Positions 23,322 to 53,390 are shown, numbered from the stretch's first letter. The stretch: 64,000 bases of DNA from an uncultured Poribacteria bacterium (GCA_958296125.1 OY282444.1:1054001-1118000), one strand, 5' to 3'. Numbers and translations: made by a program. The notes: generated from the sequence alone by a model not told the origin.

Positions 23322-23341
23322 ACGACCTTTTAAAAGGTCGT
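23322..23341. repeat. Perfect 20-bp palindrome
   Basis: ACGACCTTTTAAAAGGTCGT, 5 bases after the regulator's stop codon. Identical copies are at 29307 and 32439. Confidence 0.8.
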
Positions 23342-32243: not shown

Positions 32244-32387
32244 TTCGCACCTATTTATTTACGTTATGTTCTCCTCGTGAAGTGAACACTACCAGATATG
32301 CGTTGCCATAGCTCCAGAGGGCGAAAGGTGTATAGCAGCTTTTGATAAACATTTACATATCCCCGCATTTTAAAGGAGACCGCGACA

Positions 32388-32405
32388 AGCGGTTTTAAAA
32401 CCGCT
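32388..32405. repeat. Perfect 18-bp palindrome
   Basis: AGCGGTTTTAAAACCGCT followed by GAGG. Confidence 0.8.
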
Positions 32406-32438
32406 GAGGTGCAGCTTTTAATTTCTATTGCCTCGGAT

Positions 32439-32458
32439 ACGACCTTTTAAAAGGTCGT
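32439..32458. repeat. Perfect 20-bp palindrome
   Basis: ACGACCTTTTAAAAGGTCGT, downstream of the 12-gene operon. Confidence 0.8.
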
Positions 32459-32556
32459 GCGATGTCAATGAAGTGTCTTTTTCAACCTCAATCGTAACAG
32501 AACCTCGTGTGCGACCGTAGGCTGAGGACACCTCTTACAGAAATATCTTGAAGGTA

Positions 32557-35157
32557 TCAATTCAGGAAACGGCCTTGGATTTCAGCCACGATCTCCTTTT
32601 CAAAGACACCTTTGGGAAATTGTGGATCATTGAGTCTAATAATAAGTGTATCCTTGACCGTTTTTTTACCGAACAAGCCGCCTGTTGCTTTCATCTTAAT
32701 AAACCTCTCAATAGATTCTCCGGGAAGAAGGGTGCGCTGCTGCGAGGTCAGATGTGGAGAGAGATAAAACCGAAGATATTTAAATCGCAACTCAAATATC
32801 CGCAATTCAGTTTTACTGATGTTGGTAATCACTAACGGTATCCCACCAGATGATAGATTTAGACGTTGTCCCTGAGTGTTAACATCAATCTTCGCTTCAC
32901 CTCCGACAATATCTGCCACGAATTGAATTGGCAGTGCCATCCCGGAATTTGTGTCCATAAGGCGTAAAGTATCCGAAACTCGTCCAGCATTTGTGCGAGC
33001 TTGTGGATTAATAACAAACTCACAATGTCCAGTATTATTTTCCGCAGCCCTGTTCTTAACCTTCAAGAATCCCACCCCTGGTCTCGGAACGGACTCTGTT
33101 AAAGCATCAGGTATTTCAACGCTACACGCAACATTACCTTTACCATCACTGCGTTTTATCGTTATATCTACGTGCTGTGGGTCATCAAACAGATAAACTT
33201 TGGGAAAGCATAGAGCGGGTGGGTCTGAGACAAGGTGAATCATATCATATTTGGCTTTGAAACGATGCACACGGCGGTTCATAAGATAGCAGTCCGTAAG
33301 CAGAGACGCACCAATCTGTTTACGATAAGCGTTAGAAGGTCTTTCAGTTAATACATGGACAAGTGGAGCAACCGCCATCGGTTCAAGTGCTGTTTTGTTT
33401 TGGACATGTAGATCGCCTTCCACAAAACGTAAGACTGTAGATGGCTGAATTTCCCCCTTCAGTTCTCCTTCACCGAAGATATCGATCGCAAGCGGAATGC
33501 CTTCTACTTTCCCCTGTTCCATTTGTGGAAAATCCAACTCTTTAGTTCGGAGAATAGGAACAGCCCCATTTGTCATACCGATAACATAGATTGGCGCGTG
33601 AAACGACCTTTTCGGTTCTTTTACGGTTTCCATCTGGATCCATCCTAAATTGAGCCCCGGCAGCAGACGTTCCGGGCGGAATACCGCAGTTATCTCACCT
33701 TTTTTCCTGGCGGGAAGAACAATTGTCTCAGGTTTAATTCGCATCCATTTGGCAGTAGATCGAAGTTTTAGTTTCCTCCTCCGCTTCGACCTATTTCGCA
33801 GTGTCACCTTTTGTTCAGCCCTGTTAATCTGTAATTTGGACGCTAACCCGTGTTGACAGCAGCCTATTTCGTATAACCGCGCAGGGTCAAGCCGCATTTC
33901 ACCATCAATTTCAGCATGATAACGGTATGTTCCTTCAGAAACGCTTAATGTGACACCGTAGCCATCATCTCTTTTCTCAAGGAACAACGTGCGCGGTATC
34001 CATTGATTAAAGTCGCCCATCAGATAACCTGTCCGTTGATCGCTTGCCAGTGGGAATTGAAAATCTATATCTTCAAAAATCATCAGAGATTGATAAGGTT
34101 CATTTGCTGATACAACTTCAATGGGTAGCGGCCTTTCTCGCTCTGAGAATTGTTCAACGTGGTGGATATTCGGTTGTTCCTGCTCTAACGTCAGTGCTGT
34201 TTCATCGACAATTTTGGACCATACCCATACCTGTATTTTCTTATTGGCTACAACAAGTTCGCCACAATTGCGCCCCGATTCCAATTTTTCAACGTTTACA
34301 GAAACAGGTAAATCGATTATATCATATCCGGTAGTAAAGATTTTAGGCTGCACAATTAACCAGTCAGAATCGGACGTTATCGCATGCTCAGAAAATATGC
34401 GTTGACTAACAATCGGCACAGGAACGGTCCGTTGGAAAGATTTGAGTTTAATTCCAGAACTTTCCTGTCGTGGCATTGCGACACCCGATTTCTGCAAATC
34501 TAATTCGTAAGATAATTCACCTTTTGGTGTGAATATCTTCGCGTCGAAAGAGAATTCATCGATTTGTATAATTTCAAGACGGGTTGGAGGATTATGTGTA
34601 AAATCCCCGATGAGTAAAAACTCGGCAGAGGGTGCTTCCGCATCTTCACGGCAATCGGCAATCAAAACCTTATAGACAGTTATTTCTCCAAAGTTGAGAT
34701 ATTCGGGAAGTGTCAAATTCGTAGACTGATTTTCTGGGGGACGCACACGTAACAATATCTCGCTAAACGTTTTCCATTTTGAATTGGAGTGAACGGTTAG
34801 TTTCACAACATTCATGGATGAAGGGTTCGGCAGTTCTTTTAGCAGAATGTTCAGTTCAATTTCTTCCGGTTCCGAATTTGATGTGAGCGTAGCAAATTGG
34901 GGCCCCTCAACTCTCTTTATCCACCTTTCAAACCCTCGGGGAACGTGAATCCGTTCTACATCTAACCATCCACCCCCAATATTTGATACCTTAACCTTTA
35001 CAGATTGGTTCGGACTATCAAACCTATCCACATAGAGGTTCGCCTCGGTATAAAGGTAGGGGGCATTAATCGGCGTAACCTTGAACGGTGGTTTTATAGG
35101 ATCTGGTGCCTGGGGTAGATATAATTCGCGATGGATTTCTTTGAGATGGTTAATCAT
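32557..35157 (-). CDS. Large multi-Ig-like protein with a glycogen-binding-like module (operon gene 12)
   Basis: About 866 residues, all beta-rich, without a signal peptide or membrane helix. Several Ig-like or abnormal-spindle-like units can be seen, for example LYVDRFDSPNQSVKVKVSNI near the start and LRSTAKWMRIKPETIVLPAR near the middle. Near residues 400-450, GYLMGDFNQWIPRTLFLEKR and GTYRYHAEIDGE match the AMPK glycogen-binding (CBM48-like) pattern. It is the last gene of the operon and most likely a scaffold or recognition protein. ATG 35157 has no good ribosome binding site. A TTG at 35175 overlapping the previous stop codon is an alternative that would couple translation. The 18-mer repeat at 33076 is read as SVPRPG. 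Confidence 0.75.
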   Translation of the reverse strand: MINHLKEIHRELYLPQAPDPIKPPFKVTPINAPYLYTEANLYVDRFDSPNQSVKVKVSNIGGGWLDVERIHVPRGFERWIKRVEGPQFATLTSNSEPEEIELNILLKELPNPSSMNVVKLTVHSNSKWKTFSEILLRVRPPENQSTNLTLPEYLNFGEITVYKVLIADCREDAEAPSAEFLLIGDFTHNPPTRLEIIQIDEFSFDAKIFTPKGELSYELDLQKSGVAMPRQESSGIKLKSFQRTVPVPIVSQRIFSEHAITSDSDWLIVQPKIFTTGYDIIDLPVSVNVEKLESGRNCGELVVANKKIQVWVWSKIVDETALTLEQEQPNIHHVEQFSERERPLPIEVVSANEPYQSLMIFEDIDFQFPLASDQRTGYLMGDFNQWIPRTLFLEKRDDGYGVTLSVSEGTYRYHAEIDGEMRLDPARLYEIGCCQHGLASKLQINRAEQKVTLRNRSKRRRKLKLRSTAKWMRIKPETIVLPARKKGEITAVFRPERLLPGLNLGWIQMETVKEPKRSFHAPIYVIGMTNGAVPILRTKELDFPQMEQGKVEGIPLAIDIFGEGELKGEIQPSTVLRFVEGDLHVQNKTALEPMAVAPLVHVLTERPSNAYRKQIGASLLTDCYLMNRRVHRFKAKYDMIHLVSDPPALCFPKVYLFDDPQHVDITIKRSDGKGNVACSVEIPDALTESVPRPGVGFLKVKNRAAENNTGHCEFVINPQARTNAGRVSDTLRLMDTNSGMALPIQFVADIVGGEAKIDVNTQGQRLNLSSGGIPLVITNISKTELRIFELRFKYLRFYLSPHLTSQQRTLLPGESIERFIKMKATGGLFGKKTVKDTLIIRLNDPQFPKGVFEKEIVAEIQGRFLN
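33076..33093 (-). repeat. 18-bp micro-repeat in the multi-Ig gene (reads SVPRPG)
   Basis: CCCTGGTCTCGGAACGGA on the plus strand; the gene is on the minus strand and reads it in frame 1 of TCCGTTCCGAGACCAGGG. Confidence 0.8.
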
Positions 35158-35168
35158 AGGCGAATCGG

Positions 35169-36200
35169 TTACCAATCTAACGGATTTGTTGATTCGTGTG
35201 TGTCATCATATTCTGTGTCATCATCGTCATCTGAATCTGAAATGATGAAACGATAGACCAGAAACGCAATCGGTATCCCCAAACCGATGAGAATAAAGAG
35301 CGTGGCGATCACCATACCGGCTGCGCTATTTGTTTCTGAAGATTCCGTTTTATCGGGTCGCGGCTTCGGTTTCTCAGGTTCAGGCTCTGGTTGTATAGGT
35401 GGCGGTTCGGGTGTAAGCTCTGGCACTTTCGGTGTAGGCTTAGGCTGCACAGGTGTGGGCGTTGTTGTTTTGTCTGGTTGCGGTGCGGGTCCTATTTTAG
35501 ACGGCGTTAAAGGGATGATTGCTTCCACGGTTTTGCCAACAGACGCAGGGAGTGTGCCGACAGTCCAACCGGTTCCAGTTGTTTCGCAGTAGTAGTATTT
35601 TGTGTTGTTGTAGGTCAGCGAAGCCCCTTTGAAGTCTCCACTGACTCCCAGCGCGATGTGTCCTGGTGTAAAGATTAGTGCTGTCTTTTCTCCTAACCCG
35701 CGCAGGATAGCAGCCACCAAGATGGTTGTGTCTTCGCAGTCGCCGCCGCCTTCAATCAGCGTTTCAATCGCGTATCGTCGAAATTCATCATAACCTGTCG
35801 TCACGTCATCAAGCGTGTACGGCAGGGATTGGACAAAGCTTAAGACGAAATCAACGCGGTCCTGTCTGGTCCAACCCCGGTTTCGTTTGAAGGTGCGTTG
35901 GAACTCACGCGTCAGATTGCCAATCGTTGTTCTCCCCTCTTCGACTAATTTGGGAATATCGTAGCGTTCTTTGCCGGAGTAAGAATTATATCGCTCTAAG
36001 TCGATCGTCATTAGGATGGTATAGTGTCTTCCGCGAAAATTCCACACATACCGCCTGCCAACTGCCTGCCGAGTATTGGGAGGACGCCGCTGGGTAATTC
36101 CGTCTACAATCTGGACAGCACTCAGAGCATCTTTTGCAAAAGCATCCGCATTGATAAGGAGTCCACTATAAATCAAGACAATAAGGAGTCTGATAGACAT
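35169..36200 (-). CDS. Membrane-anchored transglutaminase-like cysteine protease (operon gene 11)
   Basis: A 343-residue protein with a signal peptide (RLLIVLIYSGLLINADAFA), a transglutaminase-like papain-fold domain, a Pro/Glu-rich linker, one membrane helix (near 298-320) and an acidic tail. The catalytic Cys lies in GGGDCEDTTILVAAIL and the His in FTPGHIALGV; a following Asp/Asn is in the strand after it. With the signal peptide the catalytic domain faces outward and the tail (SDSDDDDDTEYDD and a final NPLDW) faces the cytoplasm. It may process or crosslink an envelope protein. A close look-alike of the tail ends the VWA protein (DPLDV). It lies 6 bases after the second GrpE-like gene. Confidence 0.82.
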   Translation of the reverse strand: MSIRLLIVLIYSGLLINADAFAKDALSAVQIVDGITQRRPPNTRQAVGRRYVWNFRGRHYTILMTIDLERYNSYSGKERYDIPKLVEEGRTTIGNLTREFQRTFKRNRGWTRQDRVDFVLSFVQSLPYTLDDVTTGYDEFRRYAIETLIEGGGDCEDTTILVAAILRGLGEKTALIFTPGHIALGVSGDFKGASLTYNNTKYYYCETTGTGWTVGTLPASVGKTVEAIIPLTPSKIGPAPQPDKTTTPTPVQPKPTPKVPELTPEPPPIQPEPEPEKPKPRPDKTESSETNSAAGMVIATLFILIGLGIPIAFLVYRFIISDSDDDDDTEYDDTHESTNPLDW

Positions 36201-36206
36201 TGCGTG

Positions 36207-37406
36207 CTATTCTCCGCGAATCACCACCGGTTTTTGTATGATTTCACCGTCTGCTTTCCGTTGCAATCCCGGTAAAACGACCTCAACAATAGTTCCGGGT
36301 TCGGCATTGGTCTGCCGTGAAGCTTGAATGTCATGCAAACGCGCATCCGCTTGCGTTTTGCCTATCTCAATCGGGACAACTTCATAGCCTATAAGTTGTA
36401 AGCAGCGATCTAAGTGTTCAGGAAGTTGCTCAAAAGAAAGAAACCTTGCTACACCATTGAATAACCTATCCTTGATAAATTGCGGTATGAACTGGTTATA
36501 TTGTTCTAAGTTGTCTATCTCACATCGCTCCTCATAATCGAAAAGTCTATCCTCAAACTGTGCAACGTGAGGCTTACATTTAGCCCGAATTGTCCTTAAC
36601 TCAGTGTCTGTGTTTATATCAGTTTCTAATTCAAGTTGATTTGGCACTGGCGTTGAATCTCCACGAATTGCCTTCAGTCTTTTTTTAATGGCTTGTTCCC
36701 CGTATTTCAGCGTATTAATGAGATTACGATCGGTTCCACCACATTGTTCTAATTCGTTTTTCCACTTTCTGATAGTGCCCCCAACACAATTTAACATCCA
36801 CAAAACGTTCTGACTTGGCGTAGGGTTTTCGATATCTACAAAATCAATTGTTTCCCCATCCTTGTAGGTACGCGCCAATTCTGCTATTTGTTCCCGTGTC
36901 TCTTGAACAATTGTTTCTGCTTCGTGTTGATAATCAATTGCACGTTGCTGAGGCACATTGGTCGTTTCTATGTCAGGTTTTAAATCCCTGTTTATTATAT
37001 CTATTGAGTTGTCTGTTTGTTCTGATTTAGAAATTGAAGGTTCGGTTTTAGGTTGTGGCGGATCATCCTTTATCTGCCGCTTAGCCTCATCCGATAGTTC
37101 CTTTAGATAAGTATTAGGAATAGGTCCAATTTTCTCCCCTACATAAAAGTTGAGTTTTTTCCATTTCTCAAATCCTTCTGGTAATGGCACTTTTTGTTGA
37201 CGATAACTAGGCAGTTCAAATCTTTTCTTCAATAGTGTTTCGATGCCTGGCTTATGAGATTCCTCATAGAAAATACTAATTGATGCTGCTTCTTCACCTG
37301 TATTGTCCAAGATTAGACAAACATTTCCATTTTCATATTCTGCTGTGACAGCTATGTGTTCTATGTTTCCAATTTGAATTGGTGCTCGGGTCTGCTTTTC
37401 CTTCAT
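36207..37406 (-). CDS. Soluble GrpE-like protein (operon gene 10)
   Basis: A 399-residue protein. The N-terminal about 95 residues form a beta-rich unit (IGNIEHIAVTAEYENGNVCL). A helical middle follows, and then a C-terminal segment that matches the GrpE beta-wing: DARLHDIQASRQTNAEPGTI, then VEVVLPGLQRKADG and KPVVIRG. GrpE releases ADP from Hsp70, and an Hsp70 is encoded three genes upstream. The last two thirds are paralogous to the preceding gene (shared YNQFIPQFIKDRLFN), and the final 159 bases are almost identical. There is no signal peptide or membrane helix. The ATG lies 4 bases after the previous stop, with GGAGAG inside that gene's end. Confidence 0.75.
   Translation of the reverse strand: MKEKQTRAPIQIGNIEHIAVTAEYENGNVCLILDNTGEEAASISIFYEESHKPGIETLLKKRFELPSYRQQKVPLPEGFEKWKKLNFYVGEKIGPIPNTYLKELSDEAKRQIKDDPPQPKTEPSISKSEQTDNSIDIINRDLKPDIETTNVPQQRAIDYQHEAETIVQETREQIAELARTYKDGETIDFVDIENPTPSQNVLWMLNCVGGTIRKWKNELEQCGGTDRNLINTLKYGEQAIKKRLKAIRGDSTPVPNQLELETDINTDTELRTIRAKCKPHVAQFEDRLFDYEERCEIDNLEQYNQFIPQFIKDRLFNGVARFLSFEQLPEHLDRCLQLIGYEVVPIEIGKTQADARLHDIQASRQTNAEPGTIVEVVLPGLQRKADGEIIQKPVVIRGE
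36212..36370 (-). repeat. 159-bp near-identical segment shared with 37416-37574
   Basis: The 3' ends of the two GrpE-like genes differ at only about four positions over 159 bases, while the flanking coding DNA has diverged clearly. Confidence 0.8.
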
Positions 37407-37410
37407 CAAA

Positions 37411-38652
37411 TCACTCTCCGCGAATCACCACCGGTTTTTGTATGATTTCACCGTCTGCTTTCCGTTGCAATCCCGGTAAAACGACCTCAACAATAGTTCC
37501 GGGGTCGGCATTGGTCTGCCGTGAACTTTGAATGTCATGCAGACGCGCATCCGCTTGCGTTTTGCCTATCTCAACCGGAACCATCTCATAATCCACAATT
37601 TGTAAAAATTTATCTACTCGTTCAGACAACTGTTCAAATTTGATAAATCGCGCCACCTCATTGAATAACCTATCTTTGATAAATTGCGGTATGAACTGGT
37701 TATATTCTGCTTTGGCTATTTCGCGTCCCAGTTGATAGCCGATAAGCACCCCTTCATAACGCGACACATACGCAGTACACTCATTTTGGAATTCGTTGTA
37801 TGCCGTGTCTGTACTGACATCAGTATCCGAATCAAGCGGTTCTGGTAAAGGCGGTGCCGGTCCACGAACTTTTTTGAGTTTATCTTTAATCGCCTGATTC
37901 GCAGATTCCAGCGTTTGAATGAGACTTGGGTTCGCTGGTCCAGACTGTTCTAAGTCATTTGCCCAAGCCTCTATAGTGTGCACTATCAAATTTAAAATCA
38001 TCAACGCGTTTTGACTTGGTGTTGGATCATCCATTTCAATGATATCGATCGCTTCCCCGTTTTCGTATACCTGTGCTAATGATTCTACTTTGGCTTGTGC
38101 TCCTTGGATAATTGCCTCAACATCAACGGTTTTGTCTGGAACACCGCCTGAACCCATATTCGCCAATGTAAGTTCAAGACCGTCTAAGCGGTTTCCTAAT
38201 TTAGACAAATTTTCTTGTTCATTGCGAATTGCGGAATGTAACTTTTGAGTCCTGTCTTTGCCTTGTTGATTGACATCTTTTAATTGTTCCTTCCAATGCT
38301 GCTCGCTTTCATTTAATCTTTGCTGGAATAGTAGCTCGCTTGCTTCCACTTTGCCTTGCAGCCGTCTAACCCACATGCCCAGAAAAATTGCAATGGCAAG
38401 TACCAGAACAATAAACGCCCCAATCATCGTGTAAATTTGGGATGGATTTTTCAACAGCTCTTGTGATGTATCAGGACTCGGTTCTGGGCCCGGGCTCTGT
38501 TCTTCCTTTGCCGGTTTGGTGCCCTGAGTTTCCAAAGGGGGCGATCCCTCGGAGGATTGCTCGGCAGCTTCCTCTGAATACACAAGCAAAGTAACCCCAA
38601 AAAGCGTTAAGGCTAATAGAAACAACACATACCTGAATTGATGTGTGCTCAT
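37411..38652 (-). CDS. Membrane-anchored GrpE-like protein (operon gene 9)
   Basis: A 413-residue protein. An N-terminal hydrophobic segment (YVLFLLALTLFGVTLLVY) is followed by a Pro/Glu/Ser-rich stretch and a membrane helix near residues 74-92 (TMIGAFIVLVLAIAIFLGMW). Then comes a coiled coil (residues about 95-155) and a helical domain ending in the GrpE wing (ARLHDIQSSRQTNADPGTIV). This would hold a nucleotide-exchange domain at the cytoplasmic face of the membrane, near the MotA/MotB-type complex. The ATG at 38652 is preceded by GAGGGAAAAA. Upstream ATG and TTG codons at 38664 and 38676 are alternatives with poorer sites. The 3' end is nearly identical to the next gene. Confidence 0.75.
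   Translation of the reverse strand: MSTHQFRYVLFLLALTLFGVTLLVYSEEAAEQSSEGSPPLETQGTKPAKEEQSPGPEPSPDTSQELLKNPSQIYTMIGAFIVLVLAIAIFLGMWVRRLQGKVEASELLFQQRLNESEQHWKEQLKDVNQQGKDRTQKLHSAIRNEQENLSKLGNRLDGLELTLANMGSGGVPDKTVDVEAIIQGAQAKVESLAQVYENGEAIDIIEMDDPTPSQNALMILNLIVHTIEAWANDLEQSGPANPSLIQTLESANQAIKDKLKKVRGPAPPLPEPLDSDTDVSTDTAYNEFQNECTAYVSRYEGVLIGYQLGREIAKAEYNQFIPQFIKDRLFNEVARFIKFEQLSERVDKFLQIVDYEMVPVEIGKTQADARLHDIQSSRQTNADPGTIVEVVLPGLQRKADGEIIQKPVVIRGE
37416..37574 (-). repeat. 159-bp near-identical segment shared with 36212-36370
   Basis: The counterpart at the end of the membrane-anchored GrpE-like gene. Selective identity limited to the wing suggests recent gene conversion. Confidence 0.8.
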
Positions 38653-38714
38653 TTTTTCCCTCATAAAGAGACGCAATGAATTGCGCGACTACGAACAAGT
38701 TTTTTCTTGATGTC

Positions 38715-39968
38715 TTAGTCCATCAAAACCGGCACGGTAAATTCAACCGATTCCGGTTCCTGTAGGTTTGGAAGATTTAAAGCAAATGTACCGTGCGTAG
38801 CATCATTCAAGGTAACAGATAGTATAAATTCCATCGAACTGTTCAATGTATACTTTTCATTCTCTGGCGGGACAATCTCAAGCGTAGCTACATAGTGAAC
38901 ATCGCTATTATCCGTTAAGGATAAACCGCAGAAAAGCTGGACATCAAATTTTTCAAGCGATCCTGTGACGCGAAAGGCTTTTTTGCGGTGATAAGGGGGT
39001 GTCCATGTTTTGGGGACAAGTTCAACCCATTTTCCATCAGGTAACCGCACGCCGTAGCAGAAATGATAGACAAAGTGCAGGGGGCTCTCAAGTTTTTTTT
39101 CCTCAAATTGCCGAACCAATTCTGCACCGCCCAAAAGTGTTGCGGTTGCCTGTGGTCCGAGAAAAGTTGCGCTGCACCGCGCGTACAACGATTTAATAAT
39201 AGTTAGTGCAACATCATCGCCAATTCTGCCAGAAAAACCGACTACAACGTGTTGTTCAGCTTCAACCTTTTGCAATACCTTTTGTACACCTGCAATCTTT
39301 TTTTCTGTTTCCGAGAAGTAGTCGGTAAACCGCAGCACATCGGTCAACTCAACCGTAACATTGTCTTCCAGCTGACTACAAATCATTTGATAGACAACAA
39401 AATCGTTCCGTGCAAAATCTATTAGAAATAGATGGCAGTTGTTTACGTCTGTGAGTATATCCATCCATGCCTTCTGATAGTATGCCGAAAGGCACAGAAT
39501 TTGACTGAGCACACCTCGAAGTGTCACAGTTGAAGGGTTGAAAAATGAAACCTGCACATCGCTTTTTACACGCTTGAGTGCCTTTCTGAGTTGTTGGCGA
39601 TGTGTTGGTGCCCACTGATACGGTGTGATGACATATACCGACATCGTATCTATCGGATAGCCATGTTCGGGTAACTGCTGGTGAAAAATCTCCTCAAAAA
39701 AAGCGTTAAATAAGCATCTCAAGGTTGCTCCATCTGTAATTCCCTTGAAATGCACATCTAAATCCCTAAACAAAATCTCTGTGGGGTGGTTTGGGTCGAG
39801 CCGTTCAAGTGCATCTCCGAAACATGCGGACAATTTCTTATCGTTTTCCTGACGAAACCCTACCTCCCATGGCAGACTAAGATTGATGTCTTGTCGTTGA
39901 TTGTCAACTAAAATGGCTATCTGAATTTCCGGTGCTGAAAGATTAATGATACATACACGTTTTGGCAT
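38715..39968 (-). CDS. Degenerate Hsp70/actin-fold protein (operon gene 8)
   Basis: A 417-residue protein with no obvious family. Its order of segments parallels the Hsp70 encoded just upstream. VYVITPYQWAPTHRQQLRKA (111-130) matches CIITYPTMFTPEQREDLRQA of the Hsp70. LFLIDFARNDFVVYQ (180-194) lies where LLVYDFGGGTIDIVL carries the phosphate-2 loop. VVVGFSGRIGDDVAL (241-255) lies where VVLAGQSSKMQLV carries the adenosine motif, and GPQATATLLGGAEL follows as KGAAQYGL does. A beta-rich C-terminus matches the substrate-binding half. The DFGTTNS and DFGGGT loops are gone, so it probably does not hydrolyse ATP. It could be a regulatory partner of the Hsp70. The homology is inferred by eye. Confidence 0.6.
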   Translation of the reverse strand: MPKRVCIINLSAPEIQIAILVDNQRQDINLSLPWEVGFRQENDKKLSACFGDALERLDPNHPTEILFRDLDVHFKGITDGATLRCLFNAFFEEIFHQQLPEHGYPIDTMSVYVITPYQWAPTHRQQLRKALKRVKSDVQVSFFNPSTVTLRGVLSQILCLSAYYQKAWMDILTDVNNCHLFLIDFARNDFVVYQMICSQLEDNVTVELTDVLRFTDYFSETEKKIAGVQKVLQKVEAEQHVVVGFSGRIGDDVALTIIKSLYARCSATFLGPQATATLLGGAELVRQFEEKKLESPLHFVYHFCYGVRLPDGKWVELVPKTWTPPYHRKKAFRVTGSLEKFDVQLFCGLSLTDNSDVHYVATLEIVPPENEKYTLNSSMEFILSVTLNDATHGTFALNLPNLQEPESVEFTVPVLMD

Positions 39969-40013
39969 TGAGGATTATTATGATTGAACGTTTTAGAGTG
40001 GTCCAATACTTGT

Positions 40014-42740: not shown

Positions 42741-42746
42741 AACCGC

Positions 42747-45700: not shown

Positions 45701-46055
45701 ATCTACCTGCCATGCGTATATTTGAAGCTCCATCCATAAAACCGCCCGCTTCAATTTTTAAGAGTTCACGATCCAGCCAATCTGCCAAATGTGGGTTGTA
45801 TAGTGGTTCTCCAGACGTTGTCTTAAGGTCAATCGGTTTAACGTTCGGAATTGTTGCCCTTATAAGGTTGATCCGTTCATAATCATCCATTTGGTTTATA
45901 TTTTGCACATTCACTTCACCGTGTGTCTCAATGGCAATATAGCGGAAAAGTGGCAATCCCGCGTGCCCATACTCTTCAGCCATAAGTTCGCGTAACTTTA
46001 TTAATATATTGGTTCCGGTAGTTCCAAGTCCAACAAATATCGTAGGTGTAATCAT
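42747..46055 (-). CDS. Giant tubulin/FtsZ-like protein (operon gene 6)
   Basis: A 1102-residue protein whose N-terminal domain is tubulin-like (Tubulin_2 type). The first strand and loop read MITPTIFVGLGTTGTNILIK, and the nucleotide-binding signature, GGGTGSG in FtsZ, appears as LCGGSCSGM (177-185) after the strand IKVYVLGS. The remaining 700 residues are mostly helical with long charged segments, including likely coiled coils around residues 440-480 and 600-690. The last 120 residues are Asn/Ser/Thr/Glu-rich and disordered, ending in a short helix (KAFDIADVDLKKVLSRD). Members of this family occur in operons with VWA and Hsp70 proteins. Whether it binds GTP or forms filaments is not known. 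AGGGGGAG 4 bases before the ATG. Confidence 0.82.
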   Translation of the reverse strand: MITPTIFVGLGTTGTNILIKLRELMAEEYGHAGLPLFRYIAIETHGEVNVQNINQMDDYERINLIRATIPNVKPIDLKTTSGEPLYNPHLADWLDRELLKIEAGGFMDGASNIRMAGRLCLWENWANVQSTFDNAIRAIMAPAMKRNTINILTERNKIAGHPLDDAGSIKVYVLGSLCGGSCSGMLIDVGYFFRYLLSTYGDKSRINGIFTMFDETHAANPDAMFNIRSANCYASLLELNYYHHQETTYNITFPDGRHIENMREKPFDYTLFVSPSGKIAGNQFSTGAGDFDEHGLNLMVALNLFAESAADTGGVKNAIRTNYTAHADFGTLKPVRQGEIPTMIRYMASFGLTAVWYPKYRIASAAACSISNKLCENWLGSRIPQALTVRDAETEWDQILSANIDTLTSLEGQPPINSQIDTHLANARKQWLNTEISSNQLRWNIEEFPRGDSFRKKLEQGGEYVELMKMQVSECKKAFRDAIEQTLNNQLGSIDFEGTRGLGDVKMFFETLDKSIENSIQNCPDRMPTLNLDKLDFSTMERAENNRWLQLIFLRDDSVKAHRKNMVEQYCNLITAPGTGFYESVRNHFIRPILQEIRSELGFVDVSPKDEGEPNRRRTIKQRLDQIEGNLNKCIQEFKNEYNEAINPPRSECVKIVANNSENQIDTDAVTLSHQISKSDEGIELLRGESMASFLAKEQVDITDQMTETYRQLSLNRIQVDDVVTKTQELLDSGSFDIQNLANRSNPYQMFTHAFIPFVVKDSPNIIFGSSGKALTDLNDSLSGKGFLFAESPSSVDHLLFFYQEEAGFALDDLVSHDTLADKYRQSPGEYGHSTHQDVDFYNLELYDKIQKLQDWCLALGKIVPEICRHINKDAFSGVFYQTKNGYVYEYNVDGLSERLGLHDDPGGIKSLSQKQNETEYNKFMRLVRSCFTDLDREQIAQLINSLLKDIIDDDFNKISQFFRQFLDDVYSKDASIDNTGSNSVTGSTFFQTPPQDVSNENAQNPTANSDDYGGTATEESEIDAGLFNQSDTEHNEVGATSPQNTASPPDAADTTDNEYVWTEAEPETDEQKKQSQPSKAFDIADVDLKKVLSRDNAPKKG

Positions 46056-46104
46056 CGTCTCCCCCTTCGTATTTAGTTAGAGATTTCGCCGACCTCAGTG
46101 TTCA

Positions 46105-46500
46105 TTACTTCTTTTTTGGATTACGAGATTTACGTATTGGTTTTGGCATCGGCACGTCAGTGTCTCTTTTTTTCGTATTTTTGGTTAGTACTGAAAACAA
46201 TAGGCAGACATCAACAATCATAATCACTATATAGAATAACAGATAAAGGGTTGTATACATCCATTCAGCGAATCGGTTATGTGCTCTGTCCCAAAGCCAT
46301 ATTATAAGTGCAGTTCCGCCGATCAGATGTATAACAAGCGCAATTCCCCATGCGAATGCTGCTGCCCGTTCAATACTTACGCGATGCTTGGACAACTGAC
46401 CGAGTGCCCATGCAATCATCCATACAAAAGTGTAAGCAATAAAGTAGACAACTGCTGGCCAGACCAACGGATCTCCAAAAAAATCAGCAATGCCTTCCAT
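46105..46500 (-). CDS. Small membrane protein, three helices (operon gene 5)
   Basis: A 131-residue integral membrane protein with helices near residues 14-35 (WPAVVYFIAYTFVWMIAWAL), 47-69 and 80-105. The C-terminus is strongly basic (TKKRDTDVPMPKPIRKSRNP). No family is recognised. The basic tail could bind the acidic cytoplasmic tails of the VWA or transglutaminase-like proteins in the same operon. TAGGAG lies 6 bases before the ATG. A 115-base gap after the VWA gene is the largest inside the operon and could hold an internal start or processing site. Confidence 0.75.
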   Translation of the reverse strand: MEGIADFFGDPLVWPAVVYFIAYTFVWMIAWALGQLSKHRVSIERAAAFAWGIALVIHLIGGTALIIWLWDRAHNRFAEWMYTTLYLLFYIVIMIVDVCLLFSVLTKNTKKRDTDVPMPKPIRKSRNPKKK

Positions 46501-46615
46501 CTAATCTCCTAATTATCTATATGTTAGTTAATTATCTGAATTGTATGCCCATAAAATATCATGAGCAGAAATATTTTACAACCAATATCCTTAGTGTGTT
46601 TTTGTTTAACGCTCT

Positions 46616-48541
46616 TCATACATCAAGCGGGTCGTCATCAGATGTGTTAGATGCAATAATAGGCTCATCATCTTCCTCCGGTTCGTCATAAGCCTCATCC
46701 GTTATCTCACCCTTGACACGGACATCGTCCTCGTCTTCGTCACGACTTAATGTTAGTGTTTCGGGTAAATCTAATACCTGCCCTTCATCATCCGCATCTG
46801 CAAATAGCATTAGATTTTTCTTGTCGCAATATAGAAAAGCTTCACTCCCGACATCAAAACGTAATTCATTGGGACCCCGAGGACCAAATTCGAGCGTCTT
46901 TTTGTTTTCGAGTGTAAAATGTGCTTTTTCACGCAACGGCGTGCCTGCCTTGCTAACTTGGGTCAACGTAATTCGATGTTCAACTTTATGATTTATCCAT
47001 CCTATTATCTGACGAATCAGCAGAAAGAGGATTACACCTAAAACTGGAGCAAGGAGCACCCACAGCAGCCACATCGGGAAGCCAGTGCCACCACCTACCA
47101 ATTTATAGGGTATCTCGATTATTTTAGATAACGTTTCCTTTTCATATTTATAGTCAATTTCAAGGACAACCTTGTTACCATACCAATCCAAACGATCCTG
47201 CTTCGACACTTCCACGCTAAACGATTCACCGATACGTTTTATTTCTTGGGGCACAACCGCATCACAAAGTTTACGATTATCCTTGTATTGAATATGACAT
47301 CGGATTTGGTCAATCTGAAATGCATCTATCTTGGGACTTTCAGTCTGAATCGTCAAAGATTCACTATATTTGTTGTCAGAAAACAGGAGTTCCAACTGTT
47401 TTACAGGGCGATCAGAATCGTTCGGCCTGGCAACATAGATGATTTTAATTTCCACAGTATAGTTCATCAGGGGTGCCGCAAAAACTTTATCTTCTCCGTT
47501 GAAACTATAGGTAACTTCAAGCTTCATCATTGTGTCCGGGGCAGCGATCTCACGATTGGCGGGAAGTAGGATACGAAATTCATACGGAGGTGAATTCCCA
47601 TGAAGCTCAACAGGATCGACACTGAGAATGCCTGTTGTGTTGTCTCCATTCATTATTTGAAGCGGTTTGTTATCTCGGTCAATGATTTCCACATTGACGT
47701 TATTGAGATTAAATTTCGTTTTTTCGGAGTTCTCCGTGTCAATAGTTAGCGTTTCGCTGAAAAACTTTCCTTCTTCATCTGGTGATAGTTGAATTTCCGG
47801 CACTGACTCTTTCGGCTTTGTAGGTGTAGCAATGAAAATTGAATCGATGTCGCCCCGTTTTTGGAGTCGTCTGACTTCAATTTTTACATGGTTATTGACA
47901 AAGACACCATAAATCATTGGATCAAAGAACTCATCTTCAATTTCAGCATGTCGTTTTAGAACCGAAGCTATACCTGGGTCGCTTTTACCACTGTTATCAA
48001 TGTCGCCATCTGTTACGAAAACCCAATACGTTTCGTCGTCCGCATCCTTATACAGTTTGTCATACACCTCAACTTCTGCGCGCAGCAAGTAAGAGACCAT
48101 TCCATCGAAAGAGGTCTTCAGGGTCATTGGATTCGGCAGCTGCCGTTGAAATTCGCTTTTGCTAACCTGTGCTCTGTCCAGTTTCGCGGATCGCTGCTTT
48201 GCGTATTCGGCGTAGGTCAGGATATCGCCGCTTTGGTATAGCGGTTTACCGACATACGCAGCATCACATTCCTTGATATATGAGTCGTTCACCTTATCGC
48301 GCAAAGCCTGTGAAGTATTTGTGAATAAGAGATTTGTCAGATATCCATTGACACGACGGATATCTTTGGATTCCATGTATGCGTTCACGCGCCCACCAAC
48401 CTTGAGGCTCACCATACTACCAGATACATCATAAATTACGATGATATGTTTGGCAGCTGCTACTATAGGCGAAAACAGGATAAAGATGAGAAATACGCTA
48501 ATAGCGAGTGTGAATCTGGGAACATTTATTAAATGGGGCAT
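46616..48541 (-). CDS. Membrane-anchored von Willebrand A-domain protein (operon gene 4)
   Basis: A 641-residue protein with a signal peptide (residues about 9-30), a VWA domain and beta-sandwich domains outside, one membrane helix near 490-512 (MWLLWVLLAPVLGVILFLLI) and a cytoplasmic tail. The metal-ion site DVSGSM is at 38-43, and VFVTDGDIDNSG gives the later Asp. The cytoplasmic part has a small FHA-like or beta region (residues about 520-590) and an acidic end (EPEEDDEPII, closing DDDPLDV). VWA domains bind partner proteins through a Mg ion. The protein could sense or hold envelope ligands and pass the signal inward. ATG 48541 has AGGAGGT 9 bases upstream. Confidence 0.82.
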   Translation of the reverse strand: MPHLINVPRFTLAISVFLIFILFSPIVAAAKHIIVIYDVSGSMVSLKVGGRVNAYMESKDIRRVNGYLTNLLFTNTSQALRDKVNDSYIKECDAAYVGKPLYQSGDILTYAEYAKQRSAKLDRAQVSKSEFQRQLPNPMTLKTSFDGMVSYLLRAEVEVYDKLYKDADDETYWVFVTDGDIDNSGKSDPGIASVLKRHAEIEDEFFDPMIYGVFVNNHVKIEVRRLQKRGDIDSIFIATPTKPKESVPEIQLSPDEEGKFFSETLTIDTENSEKTKFNLNNVNVEIIDRDNKPLQIMNGDNTTGILSVDPVELHGNSPPYEFRILLPANREIAAPDTMMKLEVTYSFNGEDKVFAAPLMNYTVEIKIIYVARPNDSDRPVKQLELLFSDNKYSESLTIQTESPKIDAFQIDQIRCHIQYKDNRKLCDAVVPQEIKRIGESFSVEVSKQDRLDWYGNKVVLEIDYKYEKETLSKIIEIPYKLVGGGTGFPMWLLWVLLAPVLGVILFLLIRQIIGWINHKVEHRITLTQVSKAGTPLREKAHFTLENKKTLEFGPRGPNELRFDVGSEAFLYCDKKNLMLFADADDEGQVLDLPETLTLSRDEDEDDVRVKGEITDEAYDEPEEDDEPIIASNTSDDDPLDV

Positions 48542-48555
48542 ACGCAATATACCTC

Positions 48556-49926
48556 CTAATAGTCCCGACATAAGAGCCGATCGTTGCACAAAATGAATAA
48601 TTTATCTCCATATCGAATAGGGCGCGCAACGGGTTTTGGATTTGTTGTTTCCCCCATCGCTAACGAATAAGTCTGCCCGTGCCAGTTCCGATTAAGTTCC
48701 CAAATCGTCAATCCGGATGAATGCACAGCGTAAATGCGATTGTTCATCACAATGGATCGGTGCGGAATAAACTTGTGTTGTCCAGCACCGTCTTGCAACT
48801 GCTTAGTCGATAAAGCACCTCTATTGCTATCGTAAGTATAGACGCTCTGCCCATATCTATCGGATAAAAACAACTGTTTTTCATTAGCAAGTGGCGGGTG
48901 TATGAAAAGGGATAGCCGACTTTCAAAATCGCGTTCTGGCAGATGATCCAGATCCGCTACTTTGGATAATCGCCCTGAATTCGGATCAAAACGGGCAAGA
49001 CTCCGATCACCGCTATCACTTAACGCTTCAAAATAGACCAAACCGTTGAGCGAAACAGGTGCCGAAAACGATATTTTTTGAGTGGATAAGTATCGTATTT
49101 TAAATGGTGTTGTGCCAAGATCAAAAACGTCTCCCCGCTTAGAAGTGAAAACGATATATTGGCCACAAAGCGTAGGCGACATCGGGGCGTTTATCGCTTC
49201 AAAGAAATTGTGTTGGATGTATTCACCGGCATCGTCAGCAAAGTTAAACAGCAACATGCCCCGATTCAAACCAATAACCATTGTTGGCTTACCGTTCACA
49301 TAACATTTCAGGGGCGCGCACGCCGGAATAGGTTCAATCTGATCCGCATCTACGCCATTGATATTATTGATAAGTGCTGTTTCTCCGTCAATAACAGAAG
49401 TTTTCTGAATCCCACCCGACACAACCGAATACAGATGGAGTCCATGATAGATAGGTGTCGATCCATAAGTCAACTCACTGTTATAGGAAATGCTCCATCT
49501 CAAGTTTAGGTTTTCCTGATTTGAGTCGTTTACAACTGTATAGGCATCAAGTCTTTTTGCCCGGGGATTTGGCACAACAATAAACCCATCAACTGCGAGT
49601 AGCCCAGGCAAGCTTTCACCTGACTCTATCTCTGGGATATTCGCCACCCATGAACCGAACCCATCATGATTCAGCGAATCGATAGACGGCATTTGCGGTA
49701 GGGTGGCGGTGCGTTGCGGATTACCCGATGCCATACCCCATTGTGCAGGTTTTTCTAGTTTTTGGCTACAATGCGTGCAATAACGCGCAAAGGCACGGTT
49801 CCAATGCCCCGCAGCACACCGAAAAGCGAACTGAGAACACTGGTTGCAATAAGCGATTGTTCCATCTACCTCTGGTGGAAGTAAACCACATGTCGCGCTT
49901 TCATTTGTATAAGGGCAGACGTTCAC
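48556..49926 (-). CDS. Double zinc-ribbon and beta-propeller protein (operon gene 3)
   Basis: A 456-residue cytoplasmic protein. The first 55 residues have paired cysteines (4, 13, 27, 30 and 37, 50, 53 plus His41), fitting two zinc ribbons (CNQCSQFAFRC and YCTHC). The rest is a PQQ/WD-like propeller with repeated strand-turn units, for example STPIYHGLHLYSVVSGGIQK and SAPVSLNGLVYFEALSDSG. No enzyme motif is visible. Zinc ribbons of this type also start the Hsp70 fusion protein of the same operon. The start is GTG 49926, overlapping the previous stop as GTGA, with GGAGGG upstream, so translation is coupled to the MotB-like gene. Confidence 0.75.
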   Translation of the reverse strand: MNVCPYTNESATCGLLPPEVDGTIAYCNQCSQFAFRCAAGHWNRAFARYCTHCSQKLEKPAQWGMASGNPQRTATLPQMPSIDSLNHDGFGSWVANIPEIESGESLPGLLAVDGFIVVPNPRAKRLDAYTVVNDSNQENLNLRWSISYNSELTYGSTPIYHGLHLYSVVSGGIQKTSVIDGETALINNINGVDADQIEPIPACAPLKCYVNGKPTMVIGLNRGMLLFNFADDAGEYIQHNFFEAINAPMSPTLCGQYIVFTSKRGDVFDLGTTPFKIRYLSTQKISFSAPVSLNGLVYFEALSDSGDRSLARFDPNSGRLSKVADLDHLPERDFESRLSLFIHPPLANEKQLFLSDRYGQSVYTYDSNRGALSTKQLQDGAGQHKFIPHRSIVMNNRIYAVHSSGLTIWELNRNWHGQTYSLAMGETTNPKPVARPIRYGDKLFILCNDRLLCRDY

Positions 49927-50549
49927 TGAATTCCCTCCGTTTCGGAATAGACTAAAACAATCTCAATTCTGCGGTTTTTCGCTCGTCCGGGAACTGTGGT
50001 ATTCGGTGCGACAGGATGGAATTCTCCGTAGCCGGTTGCAGTCAACGTTTCCGGGTTAATACGGATTTCATCAACAAAAAGGCGTAAAACCGCAATGGCC
50101 CGTGCTGACGATAGCTCCCAGTTAGATGGGAATTGTGGTGTTACAATAGGAACATCGTCTGTATGCCCTTCAATCTGTATGCTTTGATAAAACCGTGTTT
50201 TGTGTTTCTGTAATAATCTACCAACAGCGATTAAGGTGGACCGTCCAAGTGGCTGAAGTTCTGCCTCAGCGGTTTTAAACAGGATTCGGTCGCTAAACAT
50301 GAAACGTTGTAGGTTACCATCCCGCTCAATAGAGATAATACCTTGTTTTATCTCACTGGCAAACCTGTTTTCAAACGCTTCCTGTATCGTATCCTGCTTT
50401 TTCTCCATTCGGATTTTCAGGAATAGTTTGCTGTTAGAGACAAATTGAATGAAGATAAAAAACAGAAAGATGAGCAGCATCGCTATGAATATATCGGCAA
50501 AAGCGGGCCAGACGTTCAAAACAGAATTCTGACGCATACGAAGGTTCAT
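49923..50549 (-). CDS. MotB/OmpA-type stator protein (ZorB-like, operon gene 2)
   Basis: A 208-residue inner-membrane protein with one N-terminal helix (VWPAFADIFIAMLLIFLFFI, residues about 13-32). Its Asp19 is placed like the proton-binding Asp of MotB. A short linker leads to an OmpA/peptidoglycan-binding domain: DRILFKTAEAELQPLG, IEGHTDDVPI, LSSARAIAVLRLF, TATGYGEFHP and KNRRIEIVL. This is the partner expected for a MotA/ExbB-type channel, and the next gene upstream encodes one. Together they should form a proton-driven, cell-wall-anchored complex. TAGGAG lies 8 bases before the ATG. Confidence 0.87.
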   Translation of the reverse strand: MNLRMRQNSVLNVWPAFADIFIAMLLIFLFFIFIQFVSNSKLFLKIRMEKKQDTIQEAFENRFASEIKQGIISIERDGNLQRFMFSDRILFKTAEAELQPLGRSTLIAVGRLLQKHKTRFYQSIQIEGHTDDVPIVTPQFPSNWELSSARAIAVLRLFVDEIRINPETLTATGYGEFHPVAPNTTVPGRAKNRRIEIVLVYSETEGIQ

Positions 50550-50577
50550 TGAAGCATTCTCCTACGGATATTTATCG

Positions 50578-52299
50578 CTACTTGCGAGCACCTCGGAACC
50601 AACGGCGAATTTCTGACCCCCAACGATACAAACCGGGCTGACTCATGGTGTGGTTCAATGTCTCTATCTTTTCGTTTAGTGCTCCAAAATTTGACGAGAG
50701 TTGCTTCAACATCTTCTCTGTGCGTTGCTGATCATCTGATGCTGCGCTTGAAAAAGTTCGTTCAAGTTGCTTCACATTAGTATCTAATGTTTGCATTATT
50801 TCCCTTTGTTCATCAACCAATTCACGTTGCCCTTGTAGATGTCCTTCAATCCGCCCAAACACTTTATTCTGGACCTCAAGGGTAGGTATAATTTGAAGTT
50901 CACCTATCAATTGCGATAATCTATTACCAATTTCTCGCCGATTTGTTATCAACTCGGTTCCGATTCTTTCAAAAACTTGATTCTGATTCTCAAGTGCAGA
51001 GCTAATCTTCAACTCACCTTCGCGTAGGCCTTCCATCATAACTTGTTGACTATCTGTGATAGGTTGAAGCATTGATTGAAGTTGTTTCTCAAGAGTGTTG
51101 GTAAGGGTGTCAGCAAGGTTGTTAGCAAGTTCGTCAACGAATCTTGCTTGTGAACTCTGAGCCTCACGAATTGTCGTTTTCAATCCTGCATTTTCTGCTT
51201 TGAAATCCAATACGACATTCCCTAAACCCTCAAGCAGTGTAGCCTGATATTTTGAAACCTGAGATATGGCCCCCTCTGTCATCACCGTAAAATCGTTCAC
51301 CATGGTATCTACAGTGGTTTGAAATTCTGAGATTTTATTCATGAACTGTTTTGCCGTTTCTTCAGAAGACTCCACTGTGGATTTAATCAGGACTTGATAT
51401 TCATTTATCCCTCCTAAGCTCCCCCGAAGTTCTGCCGGAATTTCACGCAACTCTTGCGTAATGACATATTGTTGTTCAAGATATGCATCCCATGATTTCT
51501 CTGTTAATTGTTGAATTGCCTGTTCCATCTTCCGAACATTGTCTTCCGTTGCTAATTTAAATTCGTCAACACTCACTTGCAGTCGATCCATAGAGTATTC
51601 AATTGTGGATTCTGGGGCTTGTGTGAAGTGGGGAATTATTTCTGTTGATACAACCGTTTCAAACTTAGTGAGAAAAACAGAGTTTAAAAGGTTAAAAAGC
51701 CAACTACATAACCCTAAACCGAGTGATGTTACTAGTCCGGCTAACGTTGTTACAAACGCGGTGCTCATGCCGCTCAATGTACGTTGGAGTGCATTAGAAA
51801 TTGTGGGGAGCTGGTCAAGGTCTTGAATGTCCTTCAGGAGGGGCTGCACTTCAATAATTGCGGTAATTAATCCCTTTAATGTTCCAATTAAACCGAGGAT
51901 GATGAGAATGCCGAGGATATAGTTCGATAAACCAGCCTTTCTGCTAGCTTCGCCTGCATGAATGTCTCCGAGTACGTCGTGATCAATTTCCCCGCCATTC
52001 TGCTTAATGTGGACTAAATCACGAATTCGCTTGTAAATGCTGCTTCTAACTATGAATTTCTGTGCGCGTAACTTGTCAAGTAAACTAGGAGAAATATCAC
52101 CGAGGCCATGGTTGCTTTTGATATAGCTTTGAACACGTTTGAGGCAAAAATAATTATATTCTATTCGCAGTATATGAACCACATAGTTTATAACACCAAG
52201 CCAAAAGACAAGAAAAATAAACTGGACAATGTTTTTACCAAATGGGTCTTCAAGGCTAAAGATATATTGTAGTAATTCGCCAATTATATTAATCACCAC
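50578..52299 (-). CDS. MotA/TolQ/ExbB-type channel with long coiled-coil tail (ZorA-like, operon gene 1)
   Basis: A 573-residue protein. Membrane helices lie near residues 22-44, 126-148 and 183-210. The MotA/ExbB signature runs through NYILGILIILGLIGTLKGLI and LSGMSTAFVTTLAGLVTSLG. After about residue 230 the chain is a long coiled coil to the end, over 300 residues, with alternating Glu/Gln/Lys-rich heptads. Ordinary MotA, TolQ and ExbB lack such a tail; ZorA of the Zorya defence system has one. It is the first gene of the operon. The start is GTG 52299 (a stop lies 30 bases upstream in frame). No convincing promoter is visible in the 68-base gap to the enoyl-CoA hydratase gene. Confidence 0.85.
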   Translation of the reverse strand: MVINIIGELLQYIFSLEDPFGKNIVQFIFLVFWLGVINYVVHILRIEYNYFCLKRVQSYIKSNHGLGDISPSLLDKLRAQKFIVRSSIYKRIRDLVHIKQNGGEIDHDVLGDIHAGEASRKAGLSNYILGILIILGLIGTLKGLITAIIEVQPLLKDIQDLDQLPTISNALQRTLSGMSTAFVTTLAGLVTSLGLGLCSWLFNLLNSVFLTKFETVVSTEIIPHFTQAPESTIEYSMDRLQVSVDEFKLATEDNVRKMEQAIQQLTEKSWDAYLEQQYVITQELREIPAELRGSLGGINEYQVLIKSTVESSEETAKQFMNKISEFQTTVDTMVNDFTVMTEGAISQVSKYQATLLEGLGNVVLDFKAENAGLKTTIREAQSSQARFVDELANNLADTLTNTLEKQLQSMLQPITDSQQVMMEGLREGELKISSALENQNQVFERIGTELITNRREIGNRLSQLIGELQIIPTLEVQNKVFGRIEGHLQGQRELVDEQREIMQTLDTNVKQLERTFSSAASDDQQRTEKMLKQLSSNFGALNEKIETLNHTMSQPGLYRWGSEIRRWFRGARK

Positions 52300-52367
52300 C
52301 TGTTTTTTGTGTATGTTGCAATAAAGTCATTTGTGAAAATGAAGCAAAGTTAGCTTTCGGAATTCAA

Positions 52368-53123: not shown

Positions 53124-53390
53124 TTTCGACGAGCCTTTCTTGGATAGCTGCATTAATGCCAGAATTAGGATTTTCAGGATTGACGCAAAGGAACTAAAAA
53201 GGTATCAGGCACTTGGAGGGTCGGCACACGGAATCGCTCCCGTCGGAACCCCACATCCGACGGTGGGGTTGGATGTGGCAATCCAGACCGAGCGCGCAGC
53301 AGCCCACCTTCAGTTTCCAGCCTCCAGAGTGCGTAAGTCCTAATTTTGTTGTCTTTGCGTCCTTGCGTTCCTTTGCCGACGTTTCACGTT

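Follow-up and report, generated by a model that had tools for sequence, protein, structure and literature searches.

Described Systems Closest to the Cassette

In the Zorya defence systems, ZorA and ZorB form an ion-driven motor in a 5:2 ratio, and peptidoglycan binding, ion flow and the ZorA tail are all required for defence (PMC11890865). A motor of this type is predicted in a block of twelve genes (g1–g12) that lies in a 64,000-nucleotide stretch of DNA (the window) from an uncultured Poribacteria bacterium (GCA_958296125.1 OY282444.1:1054001-1118000). Candidatus Poribacteria are sponge-associated bacteria, and the host genome of the window is a single contig of 5.16 Mb. The block is an accessory cassette that has been transferred between lineages as a unit. 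Based on sequence comparisons, its products would together build a single machine across the envelope. The most likely role of this machine is anti-phage defence, a reading that we hold with slightly better than even confidence.

The cassette has in common with Zorya (types I–III) a ZorA-type motor and a ZorB-type stator with a transmembrane (TM) Asp and an OmpA domain, for which the nearest PADLOC models are those of type III. It differs in what accompanies the motor, namely a tubulin, an Hsp70 pair, a VWA protein, a propeller and a LapG-like protease. No PADLOC model for ZorC, ZorD or ZorE matched in g1–g10 (g11 and g12 lay outside that scan), and neither ZorF (DUF3348) nor ZorG (DUF2894) was among the reported Pfam matches. 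The best explanation is that the cassette may work like Zorya but is not Zorya, as it has no known Zorya effector.

Operons of FtsZl1, VWA and OmpA genes were described by Makarova and Koonin in 2010 (PMC2875224). Judging from the available part of that paper, the likeness is that FtsZl1, which is Tubulin_2 with a long C-terminal region, shares one operon with a VWA protein and an OmpA-domain protein. The same part reports that those operons frequently, although not universally, carry a GTPase or protein kinases, whereas no distinct P-loop GTPase or protein kinase had a Pfam match in the twelve genes. It does not describe the MotA/ZorA link, the Hsp70 pair, the propeller or the LapG-like protease, and it reads the OmpA protein as porin-like, whereas ours is a predicted ZorB stator.

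Kaur et al. (2020) predicted conflict systems centred on GAP1-N2 GTPases, with a tubulin theme and a separate theme of HSP70, GrpE and a second HSP70 (PMC7159879). Those systems and the cassette share a tubulin with a C-terminal helical or coiled-coil part, a membrane VWA protein with an extracellular domain, FNIII/Ig-like repeats and zinc ribbons (PMC7159879). The cassette also has an Hsp70 and a degenerate Hsp70; GrpE was not established in it. The tubulin and HSP70 themes do not overlap in that account, but in the cassette they are joined and a ZorAB motor is added (PMC7159879). Pfam scans of the twelve genes contained no GTPase family, and GAP1 was not recognised either, there being no GAP1 model in the scans. 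The cassette is therefore best explained as something other than a GAP1-N2 GTPase system, as no GTPase was found.

The initial annotation of the window knew of no described function for the full combination. This agrees with the literature that we searched, which covered few subscription journals: we did not find the full set, a tubulin, Hsp70 and ZorAB fusion without a GTPase, the cassette boundaries, or the exchange between two cassette types (A, as in the window, and B) described below. The parts and partial combinations have been published, and the annotation left these published neighbours (PMC2875224, PMC7159879) unnamed.

Insertion, Synteny and Exchange of the Cassette

Twelve minus-strand open reading frames (ORFs) fill positions 32557–52299. 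They are separated by −34 to +49 bases, apart from a longer gap of 115 bases between g4 and g5 (Table 1; coordinates are in window numbering, and g1–g12 follow the operon order on the minus strand). The twelve tightly spaced, one-strand genes of the initial annotation were therefore found where it had placed them. Because of this spacing, the genes are likely transcribed as a single unit; promoter- and terminator-like matches inside the block were no more numerous than in shuffled sequences.

In four genomes of the same genus (G001–G004), blastn and tblastn revealed the ligase and hydratase genes that flank the cassette to be adjacent, a few tens of bp apart, and the window therefore has a clean insertion of ~20.1 kb. 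The GC fraction of the insert is 0.430, versus 0.50 and 0.53 for its flanks. A Tubulin_2 search gave no match in five genus-mates and three family-mates, and full-length matches in other members of the order. No mobility genes or terminal repeats were found in the insert, and no known non-coding RNA or tRNA at the insertion site. Two palindromes, AGCGGTTTTAAAACCGCT and ACGACCTTTTAAAAGGTCGT, are each present in three copies in the window (at 18853, 30559 and 32388, and at 23322, 29307 and 32439, respectively), and a copy of each lies at the insert's 3' end; apart from the window's own locus, no copies were found in the fetched loci. Carriage of the cassette by phages or other viruses was also considered and rejected, there being no match in viral contigs or phages.

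Six genomes of another family have a syntenic cassette, at several chromosomal sites with differing flanks. All twelve genes were found in the same order in G046, G030, G053 and G057. In G035 (L025) the type A cassette has a single g9/g10 copy, which indicates that the second paralogue is dispensable. In G023, tblastn found every family in the conserved order, with g11 matched and not called as a separate ORF, and in G082 and G071 the downstream part of the cassette is present up to the contig edge. The g5 gene is syntenic in every fully read type A cassette. That unrelated genes came to be neighbours by chance has a negligible probability, and was ruled out by synteny and the empty site: gene order is kept in six other genomes with differing flanks, the set recurs in another phylum and the empty site is exact.

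The history of the cassette is decoupled from that of the species: the identity of alanyl-tRNA synthetase (AlaRS) is uniform while that of g6 varies widely. AlaRS of the window genome is 66–68% identical to that of all genomes of the other family, and g6 is 42–81% identical over the same comparison. In G057 and G035, which belong to the same genus and have the cassette at the same site, AlaRS is 87.8% identical and g6 only 66.5%.

A sister cassette, type B, was found in 12 of 85 genomes when the phylum was searched with g11. It contains a VWA-like lipoprotein, a ~157 amino acid (aa) protein, a ~490 aa tubulin-like protein (PF13809, 33 bits), a ~1000 aa protein with an FtsA/MreB-type motif, a coiled-coil membrane protein weakly like g9, ZorA-like and ZorB-like proteins, and a g11 that is 66–71% identical to that of the window. 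The two types are predicted to follow a common design, with a VWA domain outside, a small protein, a tubulin-like protein, an actin-fold ATPase, ZorA, ZorB and a LapG-like protease. They also look interchangeable, because a given chromosomal site may hold type A in one species and type B in another. Upstream of a cysteine-synthase-like gene, type A is found in G035 and G057 and type B in G024, G027, G047, G075, G080, G083 and others; at a site bounded by an SDR gene and a HEC-01 ATPase gene, type A is found in G030 and type B in G026, with a similar arrangement in G021.

Table 1. Predicted features of the window cassette and its 3' end, and loci of the type B cassette.
Feature	Position	Strand	Basis or remarks
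Inserted cassette, ~20.1 kb	32244..52367		Between AMP-ligase gene (30672-32243) and enoyl-CoA hydratase gene (52368-53153)
g1, ZorA-like MotA/TolQ-family motor subunit, long C-terminal region past last predicted TM	50578..52299	-	PADLOC, Pfam, TM prediction
g2, ZorB/MotB-like stator, one TM with Asp19 and OmpA-type peptidoglycan-binding domain	49923..50549	-	PADLOC, Pfam, alignment
g3, N-terminal Cys pairs (zinc-ribbon-like) and probable PQQ/BamB-type beta-propeller	48556..49926	-	Sequence pattern, counterpart's Pfam match
g4, signal-like N-terminus, extracytoplasmic VWA domain with metal ion-dependent adhesion site (MIDAS), C-terminal TM, cytoplasmic tail	46616..48589	-	Motifs, TM prediction
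g5, small membrane protein with three TM	46105..46500	-	TM prediction, synteny
g6, Tubulin_2/FtsZl1 GTPase-like domain and long C-terminal region	42747..46055	-	Pfam PF13809
g7, Cys-pair N-terminus, Ig-like domain(s), Hsp70	40014..42740	-	Pfam HSP70, HYDIN Ig, motifs
g8, degenerate Hsp70, DnaK-like fold, catalytic motifs lost	38715..39968	-	AlphaFold model, Foldseek
g9, signal-like N-terminus and TM followed by coiled coil; beta domain at C-terminus resembles GrpE by eye only	37411..38676	-	TM prediction, paralogy to g10
g10, soluble g9 paralogue with same C-terminal domain	36207..37409	-	Paralogy, TM prediction
g11, LapG/BTLCP-like cysteine protease domain after a signal-like N-terminus, then Pro-rich stretch, TM and acidic tail	35169..36200	-	PDB and NCBIfam LapG
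g12, large soluble protein, Ig-like and AMPK-type carbohydrate-binding-like segments	32557..35175	-	Weak Pfam
Two palindromes, AGCGGTTTTAAAACCGCT and ACGACCTTTTAAAAGGTCGT, between g12 and ligase gene	32388..32458		Copies elsewhere in window
Type B loci L060, L062, L064, L066, L155-L167			Genomes G026, G019, G024, G027, G081, G083, G075, G080, G047, G058, G021, G022

Recurrence in Other Phyla and on Plasmids

Outside Poribacteria, close g6 relatives were found in the phylum of UBA9089 and in one Limisphaerales genome. The system is rare in Verrucomicrobiota, as only 2 of 388 genomes had g6-like matches. The order g3-g4-g5-g6 is preserved in L083, a UBA9089 homologue. In G090, a genome of the UBA9089 phylum, one contig carries the genes for the propeller, VWA, small, tubulin and Hsp70 proteins and g8, which lies at the contig end, and a second contig begins at g9 and continues with g10, another gene, g12, ZorA and ZorB; we infer that the two contigs adjoin. 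Comparison with the window by BLASTP gave identities of 30% for g7 (1e-116), 46% for g2 (6e-57), 34% for g1 (1e-36), 25% for g6 (6e-27), 22% for g8 (4e-19), 32% for g10 (3e-18), 30% for g9 (1e-15) and 27.7% over 411 aa for g12 (E 3e-42). Co-occurrence of at least eight of the families in a distant phylum had been proposed as a check on the block; in G090 eight were found at E ≤ 1.3e-15, besides the VWA protein, propeller and small protein in corresponding positions.

Four Deinococcus plasmid records contain, in order, genes for a small protein, Tubulin_2, a MotA/ZorA-like and an OmpA/ZorB-like protein, with an IS630 element between those genes in one of the four. ZorA and ZorB of D. radiophilus matched their PADLOC models at 7e-7 and 9e-8, respectively.

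Tubulin_2 genes were observed in further settings. On Thermus oshimai pTHEOS01 (L204) and Meiothermus taiwanensis pMtWR-220 (L207), genes for a VWA protein, Tubulin_2 and a ~680 aa protein immediately precede brxL, and HmaC-like, PDC-S01-like or TROVE-domain genes lie further upstream; this is possibly a new defence cluster. In Azospirillum sp. TSA2s p2 (L205), a Tubulin_2 gene lies amid several OmpA-family, DUF4384 and caspase-family genes.

Motor and Envelope Proteins

A MotA/MotB-type complex, a VWA protein, a tubulin-like protein, an Hsp70, a degenerate Hsp70 and a protease-like transglutaminase had been proposed from the window alone, and each of these identities was recovered, as follows. 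For g1, PADLOC ZorA3 matched residues 124–549 (E 6.7e-16) and Pfam MotA_ExbB matched at 0.0011; its predicted TM helices are residues 19–37, 123–141 and 180–198. For g2, the matches were PADLOC ZorB3 (7.3e-27) and Pfam OmpA (2.7e-15). In alignments, the TM Asp19 of g2 is invariant across types A and B, and the OmpA motif is retained. Because of this homology to ZorAB, g1 and g2 likely form a Zorya-type motor.

The g3 protein, not named in the title of the initial annotation, has CxxC at residues 27 and 50 and no predicted TM. Its family profile matches L083, and its positional counterpart in another phylum (L104) has a Pfam PQQ_2 match of 1.2e-18, consistent with g3 being a probable PQQ/BamB-type beta-propeller. 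The VWA assignment of g4 comes from its MIDAS motifs (DVSGSM/DVSSSM ... TDGD), which are conserved in all seven copies, although profile searches were negative: g4 had no Pfam or PDB match, and profiles of g1, g3 and g4 found nothing among PDB sequences. The g4 counterpart in G090 had a weak VWA_2 match (E 0.0013). Predicted TM helices of g4 are residues 28–46 and 507–525.

Tubulin-Like and Hsp70 Proteins

Pfam PF13809 (Tubulin_2) matched g6 with 144 bits. Nucleotide binding by g6 is plausible, because the T1 loop and the G-box CGG(S/T)CSG are retained in most copies across phyla. The matches for g7 were Pfam HSP70 (8e-28, 97 bits) and HYDIN Ig (9e-6), and its phosphate-1, phosphate-2 and adenosine motifs are all intact and conserved. 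The Hsp70 motifs of g8 are degenerate, and hhalign gave no match between g8 and g7. An AlphaFold (AF2) model of g8, of modest confidence (mean predicted local distance difference test score, pLDDT, 64), matched DnaK in Foldseek (E 3.8e-13, prob 1.00), which points to a DnaK-like fold.

The initial annotation went further, describing two GrpE-like exchangers and with them a complete and private Hsp70 cycle. The g9 and g10 proteins are paralogues (50% over 303 aa), and g9 has predicted TM helices at 14–32 and 85–103. To the eye, the C-terminal domain of g9 and g10 looks like the beta domain of GrpE, and hhalign places its best alignment with GrpE on that domain, in register; 28 of 150 column shuffles scored equally high. 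Foldseek gave no significant match, and VIA-align matched the GrpE long helix only (Z 5.3, 72 residues, root-mean-square deviation 2.9). GrpE identity was thus not established by Pfam, NCBIfam, PDB profile search, Foldseek, hhalign or the column-shuffle control, and the g9-like protein of type B, tried as a bridge to GrpE, gave nothing. GrpE is a possible identity for g9 and g10 that lacks statistical support, and no J-domain (DnaJ) protein was found in Pfam scans of the twelve genes; for both reasons a complete Hsp70 cycle is unproven.

The LapG-Like Protease and the Putative Scaffold Protein

A g11 profile matched LapG in the PDB (4fgo, E 6.3e-5) across the GGGDCED motif, and NCBIfam LapG matched at 0.0013. 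These matches identify g11 as a predicted LapG-like cysteine protease, which has the transglutaminase fold. Cys155, His181 and Glu206 are conserved in 10 of 10 copies, Glu206 being our own assignment of the putative third triad residue. In g11 the GGGDCED catalytic motif has the fold context that it has in LapG (a BTLCP periplasmic cysteine protease); g11 differs from LapG in its C-terminal TM and tail and in belonging to a large operon. Neither a LapD partner nor a LapA adhesin was recognised in the cassette.

The cassette might instead serve as an envelope-stress sensor or in surface-protein processing, with a LapG-like protease, gated by VWA and ZorAB, that mends the envelope or acts on adhesins by trimming or releasing them, and with Hsp70-like partners that handle its clients. 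The similarity of g11 to LapG and its strong conservation across types A and B fit this idea, as do the periplasmic VWA domain and the peptidoglycan-binding ZorB. We consider it improbable: g11 was not found in the similar system of G090 and is not among the annotated genes of the Deinococcus loci, indicating that the protease is not core, and the cassette encodes no adhesin.

LapG-like domains 37–48% identical to g11 were also observed inside ~620–1040 aa proteins without the cassette (L068, L070, L071-L072 and L073-L075; G066, G009, G073, G044 and G007).

Pfam matches of g12 were AMPK1_CBM (2e-4) and Cep192 D3/D6 (0.009). The large Ig scaffold of the initial annotation is matched weakly, by Pfam alone.

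Proposed Function

The similarities above support the earlier proposal of an envelope-spanning unit with a predicted ion-channel motor and ATP/GTP-binding parts. That proposal had left its role as sensing, defence or remodelling, and of these defence is the best supported, entirely through context. Defence is favoured because the cassette is accessory, mobile and fast-diverging, because a second version can take its place at one and the same locus, because it has a ZorAB core, and because some of its relatives have defence-gene neighbours. In three Poribacteria the HEC-01 candidate pair or its ATPase lies next to the cassette, which is of type A in G030 and of type B in G021 and G026. In Meiothermus, a VWA and Tubulin_2 module lies between HmaC (1155 bits)/PDC-S01 and BrxL; in Thermus, such a module is beside brxL. 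In Deinococcus QL22, the Tubulin_2-ZorA-ZorB genes adjoin an ATPase gene whose product is related to one of the PADLOC candidate families. Tubulin or HSP70 is also a component of the related conflict systems predicted by Kaur et al. (PMC7159879).

Several observations weigh against a role in defence. Because the genes adjoining the window's own insertion site are metabolic, the defence-island argument draws on relatives, at a handful of loci and without a statistic. Of 85 genomes, 9 have type A, 12 have type B and no genome has the two together; this exclusion alone is not significant. The cassette contains no recognised effector of a standard kind, such as a nuclease or NADase. In addition, the authors of the 2010 paper interpreted the wider FtsZl1/VWA family in terms of membrane remodelling (PMC2875224). 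A membrane-remodelling or vesicle machine, in which a tubulin-like polymer and a VWA protein act at the membrane with force from ZorAB in a role unrelated to viruses, would follow that proposal for FtsZl1/VWA/OmpA operons and would suit the TM and envelope proteins of the cassette. It is a possible reading that we think unlikely, as a cassette that is patchily distributed, was inserted in one piece and swaps with type B fits an accessory function better than housekeeping, and some relatives lie among defence genes.

For a defence system, we propose a Zorya-like way of working at the membrane with a different cytoplasmic half. ZorB would anchor in peptidoglycan and ZorA/ZorB would conduct ions. 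Two events together would start the motor, a disturbed wall or membrane and a ligand bound to the outward-facing VWA domain of g4. The cytoplasmic tail of ZorA would then switch state and act on the propeller g3, the Ig scaffolds g7 and g12, the tubulin-like g6 and the Hsp70 pair g7/g8, and GTP/ATP-dependent assembly of g6 and g7/g8 may set a threshold or amplify the signal. Candidate effectors are the LapG-like protease on the outside or the assembled tubulin/Hsp70 structure on the inside. The protease may be an optional outer arm, given its distribution in G090 and Deinococcus.

More tentatively, we hypothesize a cytoskeleton-based immune machine, in which a wall-anchored, ion-driven ZorA/ZorB rotor has direct control over the assembly of tubulin-like and actin-fold (Hsp70/degenerate Hsp70) proteins into a cytoplasmic structure. 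At least two interchangeable versions, one with a tubulin and an Hsp70 pair and one with a tubulin-like protein and an FtsA/MreB-like ATPase, would share the motor and protease, and filament or chaperone assembly, rather than a nuclease or toxin, would be the effector.

Implications for FtsZl1 Proteins

FtsZl1 proteins were recognised by sequence as early as 2010, and we found no paper in which their function was tested. The cassette gives them exact boundaries, fixed partners, a ZorA/ZorB motor, an empty site and a replaceable sister system, and their function is therefore directly testable. The Deinococcus plasmid version, with a tubulin, ZorA, ZorB and few more genes, is a tractable minimal form. 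Should the cassette prove to be a defence system, the motor principle of Zorya would apply also with a new cytoplasmic half, made of tubulin and Hsp70 folds, and the presence of VWA-tubulin modules beside BrxL, Hma and HEC-01 genes could thereby be explained.

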